A stretch of DNA of 10,722 nucleotides. Origin: Hellea balneolensis (lineage in GTDB: Bacteria > Pseudomonadota > Alphaproteobacteria > Caulobacterales > Maricaulaceae). A model generated the notes under the pieces. The model was given only the letters and a program-made list of their open reading frames with translations, made no database searches and was not told where the DNA came from. Of the stretch, positions 672 to 10,722 are shown piece after piece (position 1 is the first letter of the stretch; each line of letters starts with the position of its first letter). The stretch lies in NCBI GenBank assembly GCA_003233025.1, contig QIKS01000039.1, positions 1 to 10,722 on the forward strand, read 5' to 3'. The translations under genes and the position numbers were made by a program.

Positions 672-1148
672 ATGTCTATGAATATTGATGAGCAGTATAT
701 GCGCCAATGTATAGCACAAGCGCAAGCGGCAAGTGGGCGCGGGGAAGTGCCCGTCGGGGCGTTGATCGTCGATCCGGCAACAAACCAGGTATTAGCGCAA
801 GCCAGCAATGCCCCGATTGGCGATAACGACCCCACGGCTCACGCCGAAATTATCGCCCTGCGCCGGGCCGCGCAAAAGCTTGGCAATTACCGCCTCAGCG
901 GGTTGACGCTTTATGTCACACTTGAACCTTGCGTTATGTGCGCCGGCGCTCTGTCCCACGCCCGTATTGGCCGGCTTGTCTTTGGCGCCTATGACAAAAA
1001 AGGCGGGGCGGTGGAAAATGGCGTGCAGTTCTTTAAGGCCGCAACCTGCCATTCCAAACCCGATATTACAGGTGGTGTCCTGGCCGATATATGCGGCCAA
1101 CTTCTGAAGGATTTTTTCAAAAACAGGCGCGCACTGCGTAACAAATAA
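672..1148 (+). CDS. tadA: tRNA-specific adenosine deaminase TadA
   Basis: TadA deaminates adenosine 34 to inosine at the wobble position of tRNA-Arg(ACG), an essential step for reading CGN codons in most bacteria. The 158-residue product has the cytidine-deaminase-like zinc fold. HAE at 57-59 supplies the zinc-ligand histidine and the proton-shuttling Glu59, and PCVMC at 86-90 supplies the ligands Cys87 and Cys90. The helix MRQCIAQAQAASGRGEVPVGA is typical of the TadA N-terminus. The frame is open upstream to about 396, but that part is antisense to the pseudouridine synthase gene and does not look like TadA. I therefore chose ATG 672; ATG 678 is an equally possible start two codons later. 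Neither has a clear Shine-Dalgarno sequence. The promoter must lie inside or across the divergent neighbour's coding region. Length and motifs match the family well. Confidence 0.95.
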   Translation: MSMNIDEQYMRQCIAQAQAASGRGEVPVGALIVDPATNQVLAQASNAPIGDNDPTAHAEIIALRRAAQKLGNYRLSGLTLYVTLEPCVMCAGALSHARIGRLVFGAYDKKGGAVENGVQFFKAATCHSKPDITGGVLADICGQLLKDFFKNRRALRNK

Positions 1149-1152
1149 GTTG

Positions 1153-1308
1153 ATGGACTTTATCCGTAAACCCAAAGCGATGACCCGCTATCTTAACCGG
1201 AGGCGACGAAGCGGTTATGCGCAGAAAATTCCGCTGCGGGTTTTACAAAAGAACGCAGCAGCGCTATATGGTATTGCCGCCTTTATGATGGACGAAAACC
1301 ATGGATGA
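1153..1308 (+). CDS. Possible small basic protein, 51 residues, unknown function
   Basis: An open frame of 51 codons begins with ATG four bases after the tadA stop and ends with a TGA that overlaps the first eight bases of eda. It fills almost the whole tadA-eda gap. The product begins MDFIRKPKAMTRYLNRRRRS and ends AAFMMDENHG. It is strongly basic in its first half, with four consecutive arginines at 17-20, and has a short hydrophobic patch (AALYGIAAFMM) near the end. I recognise no family. In favour: the placement is tight, the overlap with eda is of the kind seen in coupled genes, and the frame is open across the whole gap. Against: there is no convincing ribosome binding site, and a frame of this length can arise by chance. 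The gap also contains inverted repeats that may be the real reason for its sequence. Treat as hypothetical. Confidence 0.3.
   Translation: MDFIRKPKAMTRYLNRRRRSGYAQKIPLRVLQKNAAALYGIAAFMMDENHG
1194..1259 (+). other. Two short inverted repeats between tadA and eda
   Basis: The gap holds two hairpin candidates. The first pairs TAACCG (1194-1199) with CGGTTA (1212-1217) over a 12-base loop. The second pairs GCTGCG (1233-1238) with CGCAGC (1254-1259); TTT and AAA inside its loop could extend the stem past two mismatches. Neither is followed by a run of T, so they are not good intrinsic terminators. They could be a weak attenuator or RNA-processing site, or simply chance. Confidence 0.25.
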
Positions 1309-1311
1309 AAA
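1288..1311 (+). repeat. Imperfect tandem repeat over the eda start
   Basis: ATGGACGAAAACC (1288-1300) is followed directly by ATGGATGAAAAAT (1301-1313), matching at 10 of 13 positions. The first copy lies in the frame of the small ORF and would read MDENHG before its stop; the second is the eda start, MDEK. With only GGA upstream at 1290-1292 as a possible ribosome contact, the duplicated start codon makes the exact initiation site of eda less certain, though only 1301 is in the aldolase frame. Confidence 0.4.
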
Positions 1312-1936
1312 ATTTACAGCAATTTTGCAGGCTCTGGCCAAATGCCCCCTCGTTCCGGTGTTGACCATCGATGATGTAAAATTTGCAGCACCTTTGGCCA
1401 AAGCCTTAAGCGCGGCAGGGTTAACCTGCGCAGAAATCACCTTGCGCACCGACCAGGCTCTGGACGTAATCCACATTATGAAAACCACCTGCCCCGAACT
1501 GATGATCGGCGCCGGCACCGTCTTGACCCCCCATGACGTTGAGCGCGTCTTGCAGGCGGGATGCGATTTTTTGGTTACGCCGGGCCTAAACTCAAAATTA
1601 TTGCAAGCCATAAAAACCTCGCCCCAAGCCGTATTCCCCGGTGTGGCAACCCCAAGCGAAGCCCTTGAAATGCATAGTCATGGCTTTGCGCACCTAAAAT
1701 TTTTCCCAGCTGAGGCCAATGGCGGCGCCGCAGCTTTGAAAGCCATGTCCGCCCCCTTGCCCCAAATCCACTTCATGCCCACAGGCGGCGTAAACACCGC
1801 AAACGCGCCCGATTACCTCGTACTCCCCAACGTCTTTGCTATTGGCGGCTCTTGGATGATTGATCAACAAGCCCTTGCCAATGGCGATTTCTCTCATCTT
1901 GAGACACAAGCCGCACATGCGATTTTAAAACTATAA
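1301..1936 (+). CDS. eda: KDPG/KHG aldolase (2-dehydro-3-deoxy-6-phosphogluconate aldolase)
   Basis: Eda splits 2-keto-3-deoxy-6-phosphogluconate into pyruvate and glyceraldehyde 3-phosphate, the last specific step of the Entner-Doudoroff pathway, in the cytosol. The 211-residue product is a single class I aldolase TIM barrel of normal length. Key residues fall at the same numbers as in the E. coli enzyme: Glu45 and Arg49 in AEITLRT, and the Schiff-base Lys133 in HLKFFPAEANGG. GAGTVLTP (70-77), FLVTPG (90-95) and the phosphate-binding MPTGGVN (159-165) are also present. ATG 1301 is the only start in frame that gives this alignment; its ribosome binding site is weak. gap lies 58 bases downstream and consumes the triose product, so the two are probably co-transcribed. 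A 6-phosphogalactonate aldolase (DgoA type) is a less likely alternative, given the gap neighbour and the close match to Eda. Confidence 0.93.
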   Translation: MDEKFTAILQALAKCPLVPVLTIDDVKFAAPLAKALSAAGLTCAEITLRTDQALDVIHIMKTTCPELMIGAGTVLTPHDVERVLQAGCDFLVTPGLNSKLLQAIKTSPQAVFPGVATPSEALEMHSHGFAHLKFFPAEANGGAAALKAMSAPLPQIHFMPTGGVNTANAPDYLVLPNVFAIGGSWMIDQQALANGDFSHLETQAAHAILKL

Positions 1937-1984
1937 AGCACGCTCAAGCAGGCGGTGTGTCTGTGTCGGCAAGGATATATTTAC

Positions 1985-1990
1985 GGAGGT
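1985..1990 (+). promoter_or_regulatory. Ribosome binding site of gap
   Basis: GGAGGT lies four bases before the ATG at 1995. It is one of two strong Shine-Dalgarno sequences in the window and fits the high expression usual for GAPDH. It also fixes the start codon. Confidence 0.8.
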
Positions 1991-1994
1991 TTTT

Positions 1995-3002
1995 ATGACA
2001 CTTAGAATAGCGATTAACGGGTTTGGACGCATTGGGCGGCTGGTATTGCGGGCATTATTGGAGAGCGGCCACACGGATATAGAGATAGTGGCCATTAATG
2101 ATCTCGCAGATGCGAGCCGCCTGGCACATTTGCTTAAATATGACAGTGTGCACGGCAGTTTTCCAGGCGATATTGACAGCAAAGACGGCGCCATTTTTAT
2201 CAATGGTCAGCCCATTCCCACATTTCGCGAGCGTGACCCGCAAGACTTGCCGTGGAAAGAATTGGCCGTTGATCTTGTTATGGAGTGTTCGGGGTTTTTC
2301 TTGACCCAAGCGCTGAGCGCAAAACATTTGCGCGCCGGAGCCCGGCGGGTTTTGTTGTCCGCCCCGGCCAAAGACGATATAAAGACGGTTGTTTACGGCA
2401 TTAATCACGACATAATTAACGAAAATGACCAGATCATTTCCAACGCCTCATGCACAACCAATGCGTTGGCGCCCTTGGTGCAGGTTTTGGATCAGGCTTA
2501 TGGTCTTAAAAGCGGCCTCATGACGACGATCCACGCCTATACGGGCGGACAAAACCTGGTGGATGGTTTGCACAAAGACGCCTACCGGGGCCGGGCTGCC
2601 GCCTTGTCCATGGTGCCAACAACCACGGGGGCAACAAGCGCGATCGGCAAAATATTACCCCACTTGGACGGTAGGTTGGACGGGGTCAGCCTACGTGTGC
2701 CAACGCCCAATGTATCGGCGATTGATCTGTGTGTTGTCACCGAAAAACCAGCCAGCAGCGATGATGTGCGGGCGGTGTTTAAGAAGGCTGCCCAAGGGGA
2801 TTTAAAAAATATCCTGGGATATATTGAGGACAAAGTTGTCTCCACCGATATGAACCACAACCCCCGCTCGGCAATTCTTGTCGCCGACCAGGTTTTAGTG
2901 ACACATGACAATCTCATTCGGGTATTTGCCTGGTATGATAATGAATGGGGGTTTTCAAACCGTATGTTGGATACGGCCAGGGTCATGGGCAAATTTCTCT
3001 AA
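1995..3002 (+). CDS. gap: Glyceraldehyde-3-phosphate dehydrogenase, type I
   Basis: This enzyme oxidises and phosphorylates glyceraldehyde 3-phosphate to 1,3-bisphosphoglycerate in the cytosol, normally with NAD. The 335-residue product has the N-terminal Rossmann motif INGFGRIGR (7-15), followed by AINDL at 33-37, where the nucleotide ribose is read. The catalytic motif SNASCTTN (149-156) carries the nucleophile Cys153, with His180 in TTIHAYTGGQ. RAAALSMVPTTTGA (200-213) and the C-terminal WYDNEWGFSNRM (313-324) are family signatures. Erythrose-4-phosphate dehydrogenase (Epd) is unlikely because RAAALSMVPTTTGA is GAPDH-like. The mid-region has a few unusual spots: ECSGFF where STG/CTG-F is common, and AYTGGQNLVDG where YTGDQ is common. 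Neither touches the catalytic pair. The gene follows eda closely and takes that enzyme's triose product. No terminator is obvious after it. Confidence 0.95.
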   Translation: MTLRIAINGFGRIGRLVLRALLESGHTDIEIVAINDLADASRLAHLLKYDSVHGSFPGDIDSKDGAIFINGQPIPTFRERDPQDLPWKELAVDLVMECSGFFLTQALSAKHLRAGARRVLLSAPAKDDIKTVVYGINHDIINENDQIISNASCTTNALAPLVQVLDQAYGLKSGLMTTIHAYTGGQNLVDGLHKDAYRGRAAALSMVPTTTGATSAIGKILPHLDGRLDGVSLRVPTPNVSAIDLCVVTEKPASSDDVRAVFKKAAQGDLKNILGYIEDKVVSTDMNHNPRSAILVADQVLVTHDNLIRVFAWYDNEWGFSNRMLDTARVMGKFL

Positions 3003-3062
3003 AAACGATGGCCATAGATTCCGGCCAAAACCTGTTTCCCTGACAGATGATGGTGATTTCAT

Positions 3063-3092
3063 TTGGATTTTGAGCCAAAACCCTTATATACT
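3063..3092 (+). promoter_or_regulatory. Possible sigma-70-type promoter of the Bax-inhibitor gene
   Basis: TATACT at 3087-3092 matches the -10 consensus at five of six positions. The best-placed -35 is TTGGAT at 3063-3068, with an 18-base spacer and only the TTG matching. Transcription would begin near 3099 and leave a leader of about 20 bases containing the AAGGAG site. The locally A+T-rich context supports a promoter, but the weak -35 keeps this tentative. The rest of the 117-base gap after gap holds only short inverted repeats, such as TGGCC (3008-3012) with GGCCA (3022-3026), with no T run. Confidence 0.4.
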
Positions 3093-3107
3093 GCCCATAC
3101 ATATTAA

Positions 3108-3113
3108 AAGGAG
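3108..3113 (+). promoter_or_regulatory. Ribosome binding site of the Bax-inhibitor gene
   Basis: AAGGAG sits six bases before ATG 3120. Another ATG at 3115 lies one base after it and is followed at once by TAA (ATGTAATG), so it cannot make a protein. The spacing favours 3120 as the true start. Confidence 0.8.
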
Positions 3114-3119
3114 AATGTA

Positions 3120-3857
3120 ATGAACAATTTTAGAGGCGGCGATGTCGCAATGCAAGGCCAGGCAGATGTGGGATTACGCCATTTCATGTTGGGCACTTAT
3201 AAATATATGATAGCAGCCATGGCTGTCGCGGCCATCGTCGCTTACGGCGTTGGCACACAGATCGTTGACGCCAATGGCAATATTGCGAGCTGGGCGCGGG
3301 TTCTTTATAGCGGCCCTGGGCTACTTGCCTTGATCTTCGGTATTCCAATCGCATTTGGTATTGTTGGCTCCAAGCTTCAGTCCATGAGCATTGGCGGAGC
3401 GCGTGTGTTCTTGTTCGGCTTTGCTGCCGTAATGGGATTGTGGCTATCCGCAATTGCCGCTTTGAAAGATCCGATGATTTCCGTGCGGATTTTCTTTATG
3501 GCCTCGGCGATGTTTGCCGGTCTGAGCTTGCTTGGCTACACAACCAAAAAAGACTTAAGCGGCATTGGCAAAATATGCGCTATGGTGTTTATCGGCTTTA
3601 TTGCCGTCAATGTATTGGGCGCTTTCGTGCCTGCACTTGCGGCGACCGGCATGATGGATCAAGTCATCAACCTTGTTGGCCTGGCTGCCATTGCCGGCAT
3701 TACCGCCTGGGAAACCCAGGGCCTTAAGCGGATTTATTACGCGACGGTTGGTGACGCGGCTATGGCTGAAAAATATGCGGTTTACGGCGCGGCAGGTCTG
3801 CTGCTCGCCTTCATCAATATTTTCAGCATTTTGATGAGCCTGTTTGGCAATGATTAA
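3120..3857 (+). CDS. Bax inhibitor-1/YccA-family inner-membrane protein
   Basis: The 245-residue product has seven predicted hydrophobic segments, at about 27-46, 66-83, 95-115, 121-139, 150-172, 181-197 and 219-242. The family motif LGYTTKKDLSGIGK spans 138-151, and AWETQGLKRIYY spans 196-207. Members are inner-membrane proteins: some leak calcium in a pH-dependent way (Bacillus YetJ) and some modulate the FtsH protease (E. coli YccA). The physiological role here is unknown. Two positions differ from the usual family pattern. The Asp of the sixth-helix motif (usually YDTQ) is Glu198, and the Asp of the last helix (usually LDFIN) is Ala230 in LLLAFINIF. In YetJ these two aspartates form the pH-sensing pair. 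The gene has its own likely promoter and strong ribosome binding site and ends at a large hairpin, so it is probably a single-gene transcript. The start is fixed by AAGGAG. Confidence 0.88.
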   Translation: MNNFRGGDVAMQGQADVGLRHFMLGTYKYMIAAMAVAAIVAYGVGTQIVDANGNIASWARVLYSGPGLLALIFGIPIAFGIVGSKLQSMSIGGARVFLFGFAAVMGLWLSAIAALKDPMISVRIFFMASAMFAGLSLLGYTTKKDLSGIGKICAMVFIGFIAVNVLGAFVPALAATGMMDQVINLVGLAAIAGITAWETQGLKRIYYATVGDAAMAEKYAVYGAAGLLLAFINIFSILMSLFGND

Positions 3858-3922: not shown

Positions 3923-6262
3923 ATGAACAAGCCAACACAACCGACGCCGATGATGGCGCAATTTCTTGACATCAAACAAAAAGCAAGACAGGCAGCAGGC
4001 ACGGACAGTGCCAGCGACGATGCGATTTTATTCTACCGCATGGGCGATTTTTACGAAATGTTTTTTGACGACGCCGTGCGCGCCGCCGCCGCCCTCGATA
4101 TTGCCCTGACCAAACGCGGCAAGCATGAAGGCGTCGATATCCCCATGTGCGGCGTCCCCGTCCACGCGGCGGAAACCTACCTCCAGCGTCTGATAAAAAA
4201 AGGGTTTCGCGTTGCGGTGTGCGAACAAACCGAAGACCCTAAAGAAGCCAAAAAACGCGGCGCGAAATCGGTTGTGCGGCGCGAAATTGTTCGCTTGGTG
4301 ACACCCGGAACCCTGACCGAAGACACGCTTTTAGATGCGCGCCGCTCCAATTACATCCTCAGCATTGGCACAACCCACGCCGGCGCATTGGCCTTGGCGT
4401 GGGCGGATATTTCGGTCGGCAGTTTTGAGGTTTGCCAGGCCGAGCTTGGCCAGCTTGAAGCGGAACTTTCCGCTTTAAACCCACGCGAAATTATTATGTC
4501 CGAGACGGTGTACCAAAACCCCGAATTGGCGGAAATTTTGCGCCACTCCCAAGCCGCCCTGACCCCGCTTGCCAGCACAAAATTTGATGCCCGCACTGGG
4601 GAGCGTCGCCTCAAGCAACGTTATAATGTCGGCGCGCTGGACGGGTTTGGTGATTTTACCAAGCCGGAACTAATCGCCGCCGGCGCGTTGCTGGATTATC
4701 TGGAGCTAACCCAGGCCGGCGCGCAAAGCGAGCTTAGTCCGCCCAAAAGAAGACGCGCCAGCGGCTTTATGTCCATTGACGCCGCCACACGGGCCAGCCT
4801 TGAAATTGACCGCACTCAAACTGGCGCTAAGAAAGGCTCCCTCCTGTCGGTGATTGACAAAACCCTCAGCGGCCCCGGTGCGCGTCTTTTGGCGGCGCAA
4901 TTAACCAGACCCTTGATCGACCCTTTGGCGATTAATCACAGGCTGGCTTGCGTCGCGTTTTTTCATGACGCGAGAGACTTGCGCGGCGCGGTACGCACTC
5001 ATGTAGCGCAAGTCGGCGACCCGGCACGCGCCGCCAGCCGCATCTTGCTCGGCCGGGGCGGGCCGCGTGATTTGCTGGTCGTCGCTGGGGCATTGGCCGA
5101 GGGCGAACTGCTCAATGCTTTATTTGCCAAAACCCCCGGACTTGAACTGCCGGACAATTTAACCGCCGCCCTGTCGGCATTTTCCTTGGCAAAGCGTCCC
5201 AAGCTGGCGTCTTTGGTGCTCGATATTGACAAAGCGATCAACCCCACATGTCCGCTTCTGGCCCGCGACGGCGGGTTTGTCGCCGCCGGCTGGCGGCCAG
5301 AGCTGGATAAATTGCTCCAATTACAAGGAGATAACCGGCAACTCATCGCCGCCTTGCAGGCGAAATATGCGCAAAAAATTGGCGTTGCCAGTTTGAAGAT
5401 AAAGCACAATAATGTGTTAGGGTATTTCATTGAGCTGACACCAAAGCACGGCGATGTTTTGCTTTCCGGGCCCCACAAAAACGATTTTATCCACCGCCAA
5501 ACCCTGGTCAGCGGCGTGCGTTTTACCTCTGAAGAACTAATCGGTCTGGACGCACAAATAAGTGGCGCGGGCGAAAAAGCACTGGCGCTGGAGCTGGAAA
5601 TATTCGAAGAATTTTCCGCACGACTTAAAAGTTTGAGCGAAGATATCCGTACCGCCGCTCATGCTTTGGCGCAGATTGATGTCATGAGCGCATTGGCCCA
5701 TTGGGCGCAAAACGCAAGCGCTGTCCGCCCCAGCGTGGACGAAAGCACAGATTTTATCATTAAAGGCGGACGCCATCCGGTTGTCGAAGCGGCCTTGGCC
5801 CAAACCGGCGAGACACCATTTACGGCCAATGATTGCACGCTTGACGGGGAAGGAAAATCCGCCGACCGGTTGACCTTGATTACGGGGCCAAACATGGCCG
5901 GTAAATCAACATATTTGCGCCAAAATGCCTTGATATTTATCCTAGCGCAAGCGGGCAGTTTTGTGCCCGCGCAAAGTGCGCATATGGGGGTGTGTGATGC
6001 TTTGTTTTCACGGGTCGGTGCGTCCGATGATCTGTCACGCGGGCGCTCGACCTTTATGAGCGAAATGATCGAAACGGCAGCGATTTTAAATCAGGCCGGG
6101 CCGCGGGCCTTTGTCATTTTGGACGAAATTGGTCGCGGCACGGCCACTTTTGACGGGCTGTCTATTGCTTGGGCAACCGCCGAGCATTTGCATGAGGTTA
6201 ACGGATGCCGCACTTTATTTGCCACCCATTATCACGAGCTAACCGGCTTGATGGAAAGCTGA
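3923..6262 (+). CDS. mutS: Truncated MutS (N-terminal 779 residues)
   Basis: This is the part of mutS that can still be translated from its own start. The mismatch-reading motif GDFYEMF carries Phe43 and Glu45, followed by the connector, core/lever and clamp regions. The ATPase domain has Walker A GPNMAGKST (655-663, Lys661), Walker B FVILDEIGRG with Asp734-Glu735, and His769 in ATHYHELT. All three sites sit at a constant offset of +41 from E. coli MutS (620, 693, 728), so nothing is missing before this point. The protein then ends after HELTGLMES. It lacks the last ATPase strands and the C-terminal helix-turn-helix that holds the MutS dimer and completes the partner's ATP site. I therefore infer it is inactive, or possibly interfering. 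ATG 3923 gives the standard N-terminus (TPMMAQFLDIK) but has no clear Shine-Dalgarno sequence; the gene begins 19 bases after a strong hairpin. Confidence 0.8.
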   Translation: MNKPTQPTPMMAQFLDIKQKARQAAGTDSASDDAILFYRMGDFYEMFFDDAVRAAAALDIALTKRGKHEGVDIPMCGVPVHAAETYLQRLIKKGFRVAVCEQTEDPKEAKKRGAKSVVRREIVRLVTPGTLTEDTLLDARRSNYILSIGTTHAGALALAWADISVGSFEVCQAELGQLEAELSALNPREIIMSETVYQNPELAEILRHSQAALTPLASTKFDARTGERRLKQRYNVGALDGFGDFTKPELIAAGALLDYLELTQAGAQSELSPPKRRRASGFMSIDAATRASLEIDRTQTGAKKGSLLSVIDKTLSGPGARLLAAQLTRPLIDPLAINHRLACVAFFHDARDLRGAVRTHVAQVGDPARAASRILLGRGGPRDLLVVAGALAEGELLNALFAKTPGLELPDNLTAALSAFSLAKRPKLASLVLDIDKAINPTCPLLARDGGFVAAGWRPELDKLLQLQGDNRQLIAALQAKYAQKIGVASLKIKHNNVLGYFIELTPKHGDVLLSGPHKNDFIHRQTLVSGVRFTSEELIGLDAQISGAGEKALALELEIFEEFSARLKSLSEDIRTAAHALAQIDVMSALAHWAQNASAVRPSVDESTDFIIKGGRHPVVEAALAQTGETPFTANDCTLDGEGKSADRLTLITGPNMAGKSTYLRQNALIFILAQAGSFVPAQSAHMGVCDALFSRVGASDDLSRGRSTFMSEMIETAAILNQAGPRAFVILDEIGRGTATFDGLSIAWATAEHLHEVNGCRTLFATHYHELTGLMES

Positions 6263-6575
6263 ATGGGAGGGTGAACTTATCTTCCTCCATGACGTCAAGC
6301 CCGGCGCTGCCGATAAATCTTACGGCGTGCAAGTGGCCAAATTGGCCGGACTACCGCCCGCCGCCACCCAGCGCGCACGCGAAGTGCTCACCCGGTTAGA
6401 AGCGGAGGCCGACGGGGCGGATGCTTTGGGCGGCTTGCCTTTGTTTAGCGCGCCGCCGCCGCCAAAAGCGCGCACGACATCAAAGCTACACCAAGCCTTG
6501 GCGGCCTTGGATGTTGATGCACTTTCGCCCCGTGAAGCTTTAGATTTGCTTTATGAATTAAAGACATTGAAGTGA
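6252..6575 (+). pseudogene. mutS: mutS 3' remnant encoding the C-terminal dimerisation region
   Basis: This open frame of 107 codons continues MutS after the frameshift. It reads KAEWEGELIFLHDV, then KSYGVQVAKLAGLPPAATQR, the conserved helix-turn-helix segment, and then a proline-rich linker (SAPPPPKARTT). It ends in the family's C-terminal helical tail (LSPREALDLLYELKTLK), whose stop overlaps the glnD start. It has no ATG near its beginning; the first plausible internal start is GTG 6327, so it is probably not made. Its intact frame shows that the lesion is young. Without translation through it, ribosomes no longer reach the GTGA overlap with glnD. Confidence 0.8.
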
Positions 6576-9208
6576 GCGCCCCGGACATATTAAAGCCTTT
6601 AAATTTCGCAACTCCGCTTGAGCGCGCCCAGATACTGTCTGTGTTAAAAGAAAAATTACAACACGGCCAAACCAAGGTGCAAAAACGCTTTGAGGACGGC
6701 GCGATTAGCGCCCTTGAAGCCGCGACAGAGCTGGCCAGCGCCCATGACGTTCTTGTCGTGACCATCTTTAATTATGCCGACCAGGTTTTGTTTCCAGGCA
6801 CGAACCCCAAGCAAGCAAGCCAGATATCGATCTGCGCCGTTGGCGGGTATGGGCGCGGCGAGCTGGCACCGTTTTCGGATTTGGATTTGTTGTTTTTACA
6901 CAGCAAACAGGCGGACGAAAAACGCTGTGCGCAAATCACGGAGTATGTGCTTTATATGCTCTGGGATTTGGGCCTTAAAATCGGACACGGGATGCGCACG
7001 CCAGCCCAGTGCATTTCTTTGGGGCGCGTGGACGAAACCATTTTAACCACATTGCTGGATTTACGGTTTTTATCAGGGGGGCGTGACCCTGCCATCCATT
7101 TGGTTGAGCTGTTACGCCAAATGCGAACGCGCAGCGCAAAGCGCAAATTTATTCGCGCCAAGCTTTCCGCCCGCGACGCCCGCCATAACCGGGCTGGCAA
7201 TTCACGTTATGTGATTGAACCCAATGTCAAGGAAGGCAAAGGGGGCTTGCGCGATTTGCATGAACTTTACTGGATCGCCCGTTTTGTTCATGGCACCAAG
7301 AGTGCAAAAAATGATCCGGCGCGCATCCCGGACAAACCCCACGGTGTTGAAGCCTATCTGCGCCACGGGCTTTTGGACGCAAAGGCAGGGAAACGGTTTG
7401 GCGACGCAGCAGAATTTCTATGGAAAGTCCGTTTTAATCTGCATTATAAAGTGGGACGGGCCGCCGAAGTTTTAAGCTTTGATCGCCAGGCCGCAATTGC
7501 CAGGCGCATGGGATACCACCAGGTAGAAAATGAACAGCTCGTGGAAGCGTTCATGCATACCTATTTTAAAACCACGCGTGAAGTCGGTGCCTTGACCCGT
7601 ATCGCCTGTACAAAACTTGAAAGCCAAAGCGCTTTGTTATTGCCACAAGGTCTGGACAGGCTCCTGCCCACTTCCCGGCGCGGGCTTAAGCAAAAGGGCT
7701 TCGTTTTAGAGCATGGCCGGCTTAATTTTTCTTCTCTTGCCGGGTTGAAAAAAAAGCCGATTGATATTTTAAAATTGTTTGAGATTGCCGGGGTGCGCAA
7801 TTTGGATATTCATCCGGACGCGTTTTTTATCATCAGTCAAAATTTGAACCTCATTGATGATAAGTTTCGCGGCAATGCCGAAGCAGCCGATGTGTTTTTT
7901 GATATTTTATTGCAAACAAAAGCCCCGGGCGCAACCTTGCGTACCATGAATGAGGCCGGGGTTTTGGGTGCTTATATTCCTGAATTTGGCTCCATTGTTG
8001 GCCGCACCCAATTTAACATGCACCATGCCTATACGGTTGATGACCACACGCTTTCCCTCATTGGTTTTGTTCATGATTTGGAAAGTGGCCGCTTTGCCCG
8101 CGAACATGCTGTGTCGAGCAAATTTATCAAATCCTGGACACGGCGTTTGCGTTTGTGTGTTTATCTCGCCTGTCTGTTGCACGATACCGGCAAGGGCAAA
8201 GGCGACCAATGTGTGGAAGGGGCGGTGCTGGCACGAAATTGTGCGCGGCGATTGGGGTTGGAGGAAGCGGATACGGATACGGTCGCATGGCTGGTTCGCA
8301 ACCATCTTGAAATGTCCGAAACCGCCCAAAGACGCGACCTTTCCAATCTGCGAACTATTGAGGTATTTGCCGGTAAAATTGGCTCTGTCACCCGGCTGCA
8401 AATGCTCGCGGTTTTGACCATTGTTGACATCCGCGCCGTTGGCCCAGGGATTTGGAACGACTGGAAGGGCGAACTTTTACGCGAACTTTATACCAAGACG
8501 GCGCAAAAATTGATGGGGGAAACCGCCCGCCGCGACGAAGAAGCCAATGAAATTGACGAACAGATAAAAACCTTGCCGCCCCATGCTTTACAAGGCGCCC
8601 ACGCGGTCTTTGTTAGCTGTGACAGGCAAAAAGATATTACGGCGGCCTGGGTGCTCACCCGTGACCGCCAACATTTATTTGCCGCCCTTACCGGGGCCAT
8701 TGCCAATAGGGGAGCCAGCATTGTCGGGGCGCGTTTGCACACGGATGAAAGCGGACGGGTGTTAAATGTTTTTTATCTCCAAAACGCCCAAGGCCTGGCC
8801 TATGGCCGCCAAAACGACAGCAAATTACAAAAACTGCAACAAGCCGTGTTGCAGGCGACAACCGACAAAACCCTGCCAGACGCCTCGCCGGACGCCCCGC
8901 CTTCGCGCCGGGCTGGCGCTATTCCTATCCACCCCCGCGTCGCCGTGATTAAAGACGGGCGGGGGCAGTTTATCATCGAAATAGAAGGGCGTGACAGGCC
9001 GGGGCTTCTCTATGGTCTGTCGCGTGTGTTGGGCCAACATTCTTTGTCCGTCCGCTCGGCCCATATTGAGGTGGCGGGGCCGAAAGCGGTTGATGTTTTT
9101 TATGTCTCGACCTTGGCCAGCGGCAAGAGGAGCGCGCCCTTTGATCAACACCAATTGCGTGATGATTTGTTGACCCTGCTCACTGCGCCTGCCAAACATA
9201 TGAAATGA
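6572..9208 (+). CDS. glnD: Bifunctional uridylyltransferase/uridylyl-removing enzyme (PII regulator)
   Basis: GlnD senses glutamine and adds or removes UMP on PII proteins (GlnB/GlnK), setting glutamine synthetase activity and nitrogen gene expression. The 878-residue product has full family length. The nucleotidyltransferase motif GGYGRGELAPFSDLDLLFL is at 91-109, with metal-binding Asp103 and Asp105, followed by the family segment VKEGKGGLRDLHELYWIAR (219-237). The HD domain contains HHAYTVDDHT (484-493), HD at 537-538 and Asp619 in TIVDIRAVGPGIW. Two ACT domains lie at about 676-741 and 798-870, the second with a standard GRDRPGLLYGLS loop; they bind glutamine in the family. The usual GDHS after the HD pair is GDQC here (Gln546). 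GTG 6572 overlaps the mutS stop as GTGA and is the only start in frame after a stop at 6554; its ribosome site is weak, so translation was probably coupled to mutS. murJ follows with a 4-base overlap. Confidence 0.95.
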   Translation: MSAPDILKPLNFATPLERAQILSVLKEKLQHGQTKVQKRFEDGAISALEAATELASAHDVLVVTIFNYADQVLFPGTNPKQASQISICAVGGYGRGELAPFSDLDLLFLHSKQADEKRCAQITEYVLYMLWDLGLKIGHGMRTPAQCISLGRVDETILTTLLDLRFLSGGRDPAIHLVELLRQMRTRSAKRKFIRAKLSARDARHNRAGNSRYVIEPNVKEGKGGLRDLHELYWIARFVHGTKSAKNDPARIPDKPHGVEAYLRHGLLDAKAGKRFGDAAEFLWKVRFNLHYKVGRAAEVLSFDRQAAIARRMGYHQVENEQLVEAFMHTYFKTTREVGALTRIACTKLESQSALLLPQGLDRLLPTSRRGLKQKGFVLEHGRLNFSSLAGLKKKPIDILKLFEIAGVRNLDIHPDAFFIISQNLNLIDDKFRGNAEAADVFFDILLQTKAPGATLRTMNEAGVLGAYIPEFGSIVGRTQFNMHHAYTVDDHTLSLIGFVHDLESGRFAREHAVSSKFIKSWTRRLRLCVYLACLLHDTGKGKGDQCVEGAVLARNCARRLGLEEADTDTVAWLVRNHLEMSETAQRRDLSNLRTIEVFAGKIGSVTRLQMLAVLTIVDIRAVGPGIWNDWKGELLRELYTKTAQKLMGETARRDEEANEIDEQIKTLPPHALQGAHAVFVSCDRQKDITAAWVLTRDRQHLFAALTGAIANRGASIVGARLHTDESGRVLNVFYLQNAQGLAYGRQNDSKLQKLQQAVLQATTDKTLPDASPDAPPSRRAGAIPIHPRVAVIKDGRGQFIIEIEGRDRPGLLYGLSRVLGQHSLSVRSAHIEVAGPKAVDVFYVSTLASGKRSAPFDQHQLRDDLLTLLTAPAKHMK

Positions 9209-10722
9209 GGCTTATTCGCTCAACCGCCATTATCGCAACCCTGACATTGTTCAGCCGTGTTCTTGGTTTGGTACGCGATACGCTGATGACAAAATATCTC
9301 GGCGCAGGCCCCATAACTGACGCCCTGATAACCGCTTTTAAAATCCCCAATACGTTTCGCAGAATTTTCGCCGAAGGCGCATTTAACTCTGCCTTTGTCC
9401 CCCTCTATGCCCGGCGCATAGAGGAAGACGGGGAGGAAAGCGCAGACGGGTTCGCCTCCGAAGCCTTCGCCGCCTTATTCGTCATGGTGGCGGCTTTGGT
9501 CATCATCTTTGAAATTACCATGCCGTGGACGCTTAATCTGTTTGGCATTGGCCTGGGCCGAGAAAGCGTTGACCCCGGCGCCGCGTTCCCGGCCGGGTTG
9601 GCACCTTATGAGCTGGCCGTATTGTGTGCGCAAATCACCATGCCTTATTTATTGCTCATGTCCTTAACGTCTCTGTTTTCTGGCATTTTAAACACGCGCC
9701 ACCATTTTGCCGTGGCCGCTTTTGCGCCGGTGTTGCTGAATATTGTGCTGATTGCCGTGCTCGGCTATATGGCAGCGGCCCAATGGAGCCAATCTTTACT
9801 AACGGTTTATCTGTCCATTGGCATGAGTATTTCCGGCCTATTTCAACTGGCCTTGGTGTTTTGGGCCTGCCGTAAAGCTGGCGTACACATCAGCTTTAAA
9901 CGGCCGCGCATGACCCCGGGGGTAAAGCGGCTTTTAACCTTGGGCATACCGGGCATGTTGGCGGCGGGCATTACCCATATCAATATTATGGTCAGCAATT
10001 CCATTGCCACCTTACAAGACAGTGCCGCCTCCTGGCTCTATTGGGCCGACCGTCTCTATCAATTGCCGCTGGGCATGATAGGTATTGCCATGGGCATTGC
10101 CCTGCTGCCAACCTTAACCCGCAGCTTGCGCAGCGGTGATGAGGCGGGTGCGAAGAGTTCTCTAAACCGGGCCATGGAAATCGCCGCGTTTTTAACCTTG
10201 CCTGCCGCCGCGGCCCTGGCGGTTATGCCGGAGTTTCTCGTCGGCGGTTTGTTTGAGCGCGGCGCCTTTGACCGCTCCGATACCCAAGCTACCGGAGCGG
10301 CCTTGCAGATATTTGCGTTCGGCCTGCCAGCTTTCGTGTTGATCAAAGTGCTAACGCCGGCGTTTTTTGCCCGCGAGAACACTAAAACGCCGATGCTCTA
10401 TGCCGGCATTTCCGCTGTGATCAATCTGGTTCTGGGCTATATGTTATTTGTAAAGATGGGTTTTGTCGGCCTGGCCATTGCCACTTCTTTCGCCAGTTGG
10501 GTAAATGTTTTCTTCCTCACCCGCACTTTGTTGGCGTCGGGAGATTTTAAACCGGACGCACGATTGTTAAGCCGCCTGCCGCGCATTGCCTTGGCGTCGG
10601 CAGCCATGGGCGTTTTAGTCTGGTGGGCAGCACGGGCGGCCACGCCTTTCATGGGCGTGTCTTTCGTGCAAAATTATTTACTGTTAGCACTTGTGTCCGG
10701 CGCAGGCTTGCTGTTTTATGCC
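9205..10722 (+). CDS. murJ: Lipid II flippase MurJ (3' end outside window)
   Basis: MurJ moves the peptidoglycan precursor lipid II from the inner to the outer face of the inner membrane and is essential in most bacteria. The frame begins at ATG 9205, overlapping the glnD stop as ATGA, and is open for 506 codons to the window end. E. coli MurJ has 511 residues, so only the C-terminal tail is missing. The N-terminus reads LFSRVLGLVRDTLMTKYLGA and contains the functionally required Arg18, Arg24, Asp39 (PITDAL) and Arg52 (NTFRRIFAEGAF), at exactly the E. coli numbers. Arg283 in YWADRL corresponds to E. coli Arg270. LFERGAFDRSDT (349-360) and TPAFFAREN (384-392) are further MVF-family signatures. 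The whole protein is hydrophobic, consistent with the family's 14 helices. No ribosome site is needed if translation is coupled to glnD. The glnD-murJ order is common in alphaproteobacteria. Confidence 0.95.
   Translation, partial: MRLIRSTAIIATLTLFSRVLGLVRDTLMTKYLGAGPITDALITAFKIPNTFRRIFAEGAFNSAFVPLYARRIEEDGEESADGFASEAFAALFVMVAALVIIFEITMPWTLNLFGIGLGRESVDPGAAFPAGLAPYELAVLCAQITMPYLLLMSLTSLFSGILNTRHHFAVAAFAPVLLNIVLIAVLGYMAAAQWSQSLLTVYLSIGMSISGLFQLALVFWACRKAGVHISFKRPRMTPGVKRLLTLGIPGMLAAGITHINIMVSNSIATLQDSAASWLYWADRLYQLPLGMIGIAMGIALLPTLTRSLRSGDEAGAKSSLNRAMEIAAFLTLPAAAALAVMPEFLVGGLFERGAFDRSDTQATGAALQIFAFGLPAFVLIKVLTPAFFARENTKTPMLYAGISAVINLVLGYMLFVKMGFVGLAIATSFASWVNVFFLTRTLLASGDFKPDARLLSRLPRIALASAAMGVLVWWAARAATPFMGVSFVQNYLLLALVSGAGLLFYA

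Follow-up and report, generated by a model that had tools for sequence, protein, structure and literature searches.

A frame-split mutS, short by a net 35 nucleotides just after its HELT motif, in a draft alphaproteobacterial genome

The mutS gene in the 10,722-nucleotide stretch of DNA analysed here (the window, which is the entire contig C73 of a draft genome, G000) is broken just after its HELT motif: the open reading frame at 3923-6262 (779 codons) ends at a TGA at 6260-6262, and the remainder of the family sequence continues in another frame. A preliminary description, made from the letters of this DNA alone, had called mutS inactivated by a deletion and frameshift at this point, and what it observed of the gene is confirmed in all particulars that could be tested. 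The coding sequence is disrupted where that of intact relatives is continuous, as in a loss-of-function allele, and we lean towards the reading that this is an ordinary mutS loss-of-function allele whose deletion is present in real DNA. If so, a net deletion of about 35 bases in the sampled DNA would have struck the sole mutS found in what appears to be a Robiginitomaculum-like alphaproteobacterium, just past the H-loop sequence, and translation would stop 5 residues past HELT. The predicted product would keep the mismatch-binding, connector and core domains and most of the ATPase domain, and would lose the final part of the ATPase fold together with the helix-turn-helix (HTH) through which two MutS subunits join. 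Judging from MutS proteins that have been studied, no stable dimer would form and mismatch repair would be lost; with the lesion in real DNA and the function gone, as we infer, the mutation rate would be expected to rise.

The source draft genome comprises 1,670,048 bases in 311 contigs and is 83.7% complete and 2.9% contaminated. Among the matches listed, the best three mutS homologues with a named organism are from Robiginitomaculum sp., a genus in Maricaulales, Robiginitomaculaceae. At its left end the window holds an rRNA pseudouridine synthase gene that is cut by the contig start (3-653, minus strand) and that we take to be rluB-like, and a deaminase gene (672-1148, plus strand), presumably tadA-like, which adjoins rluB in three of the four congeners read. 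The two parts of mutS are followed on the plus strand by glnD, encoding PII uridylyltransferase (6572-9208, GTG start; ORF and Pfam), and by murJ (9205-10,722), which continues past the contig end. The order mutS-glnD-murJ is common to the window and four congeners. Upstream of mutS, at 1301-3857, lie genes for a KDPG aldolase, a GAPDH and a Bax1-I protein; different genes stand upstream of intact mutS in the four congeners read (L137, L139, L140, L141). No tRNA was found in the window, an Rfam scan gave no match at gathering thresholds, and a plasmid search in near mode gave no match.

The 5' part of mutS (3923-6262, plus strand; ORF, Pfam and TIGR01070) retains its motifs through the H-loop. 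Pfam assigns it MutS domains I-IV and domain V up to profile position 128 of 188, and it scores above the curated cut-offs of both TIGR01070 (838 bits vs 480) and PRK05399 (674 vs 642). MGDFYEMF, GPNMAGKST (residue 655), SRGRSTFMSEM (705), ILDEIGRGT (732) and FATHYHEL (766) are all present, and we take them to be the mismatch-recognition F-x-E motif, Walker A, the signature, Walker B and the H-loop, respectively. Alignments to two solved MutS sequences contain no gaps between Walker A and the last residue of the 5' piece, in agreement with the constant offset that had been described between Walker A, Walker B and the histidine motif.

At the lesion point (6257-6263, plus strand; profile match and alignments), 12 codons present in relatives are missing and the frame changes. 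The preliminary description had placed the stop at 6260-6262 and a continuation open from 6252, and the open reading frames bear out both: the frame carrying EWEGELIFLHDV has its preceding stop at 6249-6251, is open from 6252 and runs to a TGA at 6573-6575. From EWEGELIFLHDVKPGAADKSYG on, the family sequence is read in the frame of 6261, and the resulting 3' remnant (6261-6575, plus strand; PF00488 and TIGR01070) comprises what is left of domain V and the C-terminal portion of the protein, its TGA overlapping the glnD GTG at 6572 by 4 bases. TIGR01070 follows the first piece to profile position 722 (residue 778) and picks up the second, read from the W codon at 6264, at positions 738-839, starting at its residue 2; once S779, E and W are counted, 12 profile positions are without a counterpart. 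PF00488 matches the remnant at profile positions 142-188.

The spacing from HELT to EW is 5 residues in the window vs 17 in 27 of 28 aligned relatives, and it is also 17 in 113 of the 119 homologues among the matches listed, the two sets overlapping in some organisms. The one exception among the aligned relatives (L011) is cut at the same place; of the six other listed homologues, four could not be parsed by the HELT-EW pattern and two, P0050 and P0081, are truncated there. The roughly 12 residues said earlier to be absent after HELT are thus indeed missing, and 12 lost codons with 1 base left over amount to a net shortage of 35 nt, a loss of the 3n+2 form that had been proposed with 35 as its example. 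P0081, a 795-aa mutS homologue, has an end that reads CLLYTSPSPRD..., a tail that we take to be Illumina adapter read-through.

Aligned to the solved structures, the last matched residue of the 5' piece corresponds to residue 737 of E. coli MutS, which puts the cut at about 738. The E. coli HTH is described as residues 766-800, as stabilising dimers, and as moving about a hinge at 765-766 (PMC4521584). The cut lies ahead of these residues, and the predicted loss of the HTH dimer region from the product stands; no single frame in the window's mutS holds both a complete domain V and the C-terminal HTH. A protein without the HTH and part of the ATPase fold is expected to lose function, and the MutS product of this gene is probably non-functional. 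Disruption of the HTH in MutS is reportedly the subject of work by Biswas et al. in 2001. The engineered protein MutS deltaC800 has likewise lost C-terminal sequence, but it retains the HTH (766-800) and forms a dimer in the crystal (PMC4521584), whereas the window's product would end at about residue 738, without the HTH.

It might be supposed that the pieces still work, through recoding of the stop or through a separate C-terminal piece begun at GTG 6327, the earliest start codon in the remnant frame. The second frame has no stop before its natural end and still encodes the family sequence, and a start codon is at hand; yet 12 residues that every parsed relative possesses are missing in any frame, and GTG 6327 falls after the EWEGELIFLHDV segment, and we hold working pieces to be exceedingly improbable. 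To our knowledge, no MutS works as two recoded or separate pieces.

A loss-of-function allele of this kind would be nothing new in principle, since natural mutS frameshifts that make mutators are already known and the window is at most another case. In Vibrio splendidus 12B01, a mobile element that excises from mutS leaves a 2-bp frameshift behind (PMC5296598). The two cases are alike in having a frameshift in an otherwise intact mutS and predicted hypermutation. They differ in that the V. splendidus element sits in the HTPMMQQ motif and leaves 2 bp of damage, whereas the window's gene is missing about 35 nt close to its C-terminal end. The equivalent motif in the window, PTPMMAQF, lies undamaged close to the N-terminus, with no element seen, and the lesion lies 5 codons after HELT; a mobile-element scar of the V. 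splendidus type was therefore rejected.

A competing explanation is that the cell has an intact mutS and that some 35 bases were lost from the reads or the assembly, at thin coverage or in a mixture of strains. We doubt this, although it carries real weight, given how fragmented the assembly is (311 contigs, 84% complete) and given the frequency of split genes. When 41 G000 contigs (455,465 bases, 27% of the assembly, two contigs being cut at 20 kb) were set against ORFs in 1.44 Mb of the roughly 3.1-Mb genome of a congener, G001, 3 of 152 comparable genes were frame-split in G000 (mutS, uvrB and an ELM1-like gene) vs 0 of 158 in the reverse comparison, a difference of three events that may be chance and that is drawn against a far better assembled genome (10 contigs) rather than a matched control. 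One G000 row and three G001 rows with stops inside the match were excluded from the split counts. An earlier scan of this kind covered 130 genes and had 8 rows with in-frame stops, 3 of which were inspected; one of its four splits was discarded as the wrong-strand ORF of a real gene, with 6 stops in the match.

The uvrB gene is short by about 7 nt near base 310 (L152, G000:C4, 2-355 and 313-1038); its 5' part lies on a second contig (L258, G000:C122) that overlaps C4 by exactly 91 bases, and no intact copy of the stretch was found in G000. The ELM1-like gene lies in two frames (L150, G000:C2, 16070-17033, minus strand), and its G001 counterpart has PF06258. The earlier statement that the damage is confined to one spot thus holds within mutS but not for the genome, in which these two genes are frame-split too. 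Against an artefact, losses of 35 nt in mutS and about 7 nt in uvrB are not one-base homopolymer slips. A reference-free hexamer scan for frame changes was also tried, and it returned similar rates in the two genomes (13 pairs in 455 kb of G000, mutS and uvrB included, and 45 in 1.40 Mb of G001); four of the G000 pairs (8 pieces) were assigned by Pfam, in each pair to different families, and represent neighbouring genes.

The manner of assembly also bears on whether the deletion is real. Contig ends overlap by exactly 91 bases in three pairs among the contigs fetched, the C122/C4 pair included, which suggests a k-mer assembly with k of about 91. In such assemblies a junction usually needs reads that contain it, so that a deletion in real reads is somewhat favoured, although the argument is a weak one because assemblers that raise k stepwise may retain junctions formed at smaller k. 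The junction string occurs once in the assembly with up to 3 mismatches allowed; no repeat there accounts for a misjoin, and a repeat-driven misjoin in the window is accordingly unsupported. This uniqueness, like the single lineage indicated on both sides of the junction (below), counts against an artefact.

Breaks near the same position in other sequences pull the other way. In G008, mutS runs to LMEKLP and is then joined to an opposite-strand DUF2779 gene at a contig end (L138, G008:C24, 1-260), and the two matches meet or overlap by a few bases; the mutS tail was not found elsewhere in this 74%-complete genome. An insertion sequence at that position was rejected, Pfam giving DUF2779, and this identity together with the meeting or overlapping matches makes a misjoin, or recombination, at a short shared stretch likelier in G008; the join is probably a misjoin over such a stretch. 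A gene join at the same spot, and the end of P0081 nearby in apparent adapter sequence, both speak for an artefact in the window as well.

A further case involves P0050 (751 aa, ending HELTDLIENLDRRSR; TIGR01070 19-725) and P0267 (97 aa; TIGR01070 746-839, its family match starting shortly before GAADKSYG), which are both listed with a 15,426-base contig from the source jgi. Together they apparently represent one mutS split after HELTDLIENLD, with the sequence between the pieces missing or changed. The likeness to the window lies in this apparent split after HELT..NLD; the differences are that it concerns another species (69% identical) and another lesion, and that placement of the two pieces on one contig rests on the equal 15,426-base size. 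The window, this pair and the G008 join could together suggest that mutS in this family breaks recurrently just past the H-loop, at a fragile or contingency site through which natural populations turn off mismatch repair time and again; this seems to us very unlikely. The N-termini of 120 of 372 C-terminal fragments lent no support to a break hot spot after HELT, in a weak test, the projected starts being scattered across about 100 positions and governed by the available start codons and the length limits of the search.

An intact mutS is the rule among relatives. The gene is one open frame of 883 codons or more in 55 of the 61 genomes searched, a total that includes G000 itself. The six without one are G000 and G008 plus G004, G005, G015 and G029, in which the mutS match is partial or in two pieces; these four likely reflect contig ends, as coordinates show for G004 (C86) and G005 (C233). 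Looking for a second mutS had been advised, and neither a second gene nor a second MutS_V domain was found in the 83.7%-complete G000 assembly. P0002 is the top-scoring relative for both pieces of the window's mutS among the 23 compared (74% identical over the 5' piece, 80% over the 3' piece), and the best glnD match is P0122 (66%), whose contig and that of P0002 are listed as equal in size. Both mutS pieces and glnD therefore point to one lineage, so the contig is no two-species chimera at the lesion. No near-identical mutS appears among the matches listed, the next best being 74% identical, and a scan of genome contigs for relatives (at least 80 loci, all at most 56% identical among the matches listed) added nothing.

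What remains of mutS shows the usual constraint. In a 29-row alignment, the window differs at 3 of the 221 columns that are otherwise invariant and the 28 relatives at 0-6, and the ratio of mutS to glnD terminal branches is 0.58 in the window and 0.27-1.13 in the others, in trees of the window and 16 relatives with the two genes paired by equal size of their listed contigs. As these values indicate no relaxed evolution in the remaining gene, the lesion is either recent or not real. The recent event proposed in the preliminary description thus gains indirect support, and the same normal constraint would also fit an assembly artefact.

Searching for mutL had been advised as well, and no match was found in the G000 assembly with TIGR00585 or MutL_C, both of which match in control genomes; TIGR00585 MutL is present in 40 of 40 relatives. 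In all four congeners read, one flank of mutL holds a DUF3035 gene and ileS, separated by lspA (three of them list it directly), and the other flank, in three of the four, has rsmD, rluB and tadA within a few kb; the fourth (G011, L135) has other genes on that second flank within the stretch fetched. The corresponding G000 contig, C210 (L147, 816-3397), carries the end of ileS, lspA and the DUF3035 gene and then an opposite-strand TonB-receptor-like gene; mutL is not there. The Plug match of the TonB-receptor-like gene is just below the cut-off, and the gene shares 63% identity with one in G009 whose match exceeds it; this G009 counterpart lies beyond tadA, at the far side of the block. In G000, tadA and rluB stand at the window's left end beside eda-gap-bax1-mutS, the contig stopping inside rluB, and rsmD was not found in the assembly with a query that had no positive control. 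Most of ileS is missing, with its ends at contig ends, almost certainly through an assembly gap. Most simply, the block would have moved, and rsmD and mutL would lie left of the window in sequence missing from the assembly; a deletion of mutL is possible. Because the region around it is rearranged and breaks off at contig ends, the absence of mutL is unproven and is no evidence of lost repair.

These observations bear on a different view of the lesion, namely that mismatch repair was lost longer ago and across the lineage, with mutL gone, mutS a remnant, uvrB broken and the genome shrinking. Such a history would accommodate the unmatched MutL against its presence in all 40 relatives, its absence from the usual place after the DUF3035 gene on C210, the frame-split uvrB and an assembly of 1.67 Mb vs 2.0-3.5 Mb in 13 congeners. 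We nevertheless consider it quite unlikely: mutS shows no acceleration, rsmD too is unfound and the contig begins inside rluB, so that a gap can explain both missing genes, and the lack of most of ileS is almost certainly a gap as well.

Laboratory lines and clinical isolates are the main settings in which recent loss of mismatch repair is known. If the favoured reading of a real deletion is right, the window would present an uncultured environmental bacterium caught soon after losing mismatch repair; if the lesion is artefactual, it warns against inferring a mutator from a repair gene that is frame-split in a draft genome of low quality. The mechanism is ordinary either way. The broken gene may also affect its neighbour: translation would now end about 310 nt short of the glnD start, a start that overlaps the original mutS stop, and weaker coupling to glnD is a possible consequence.
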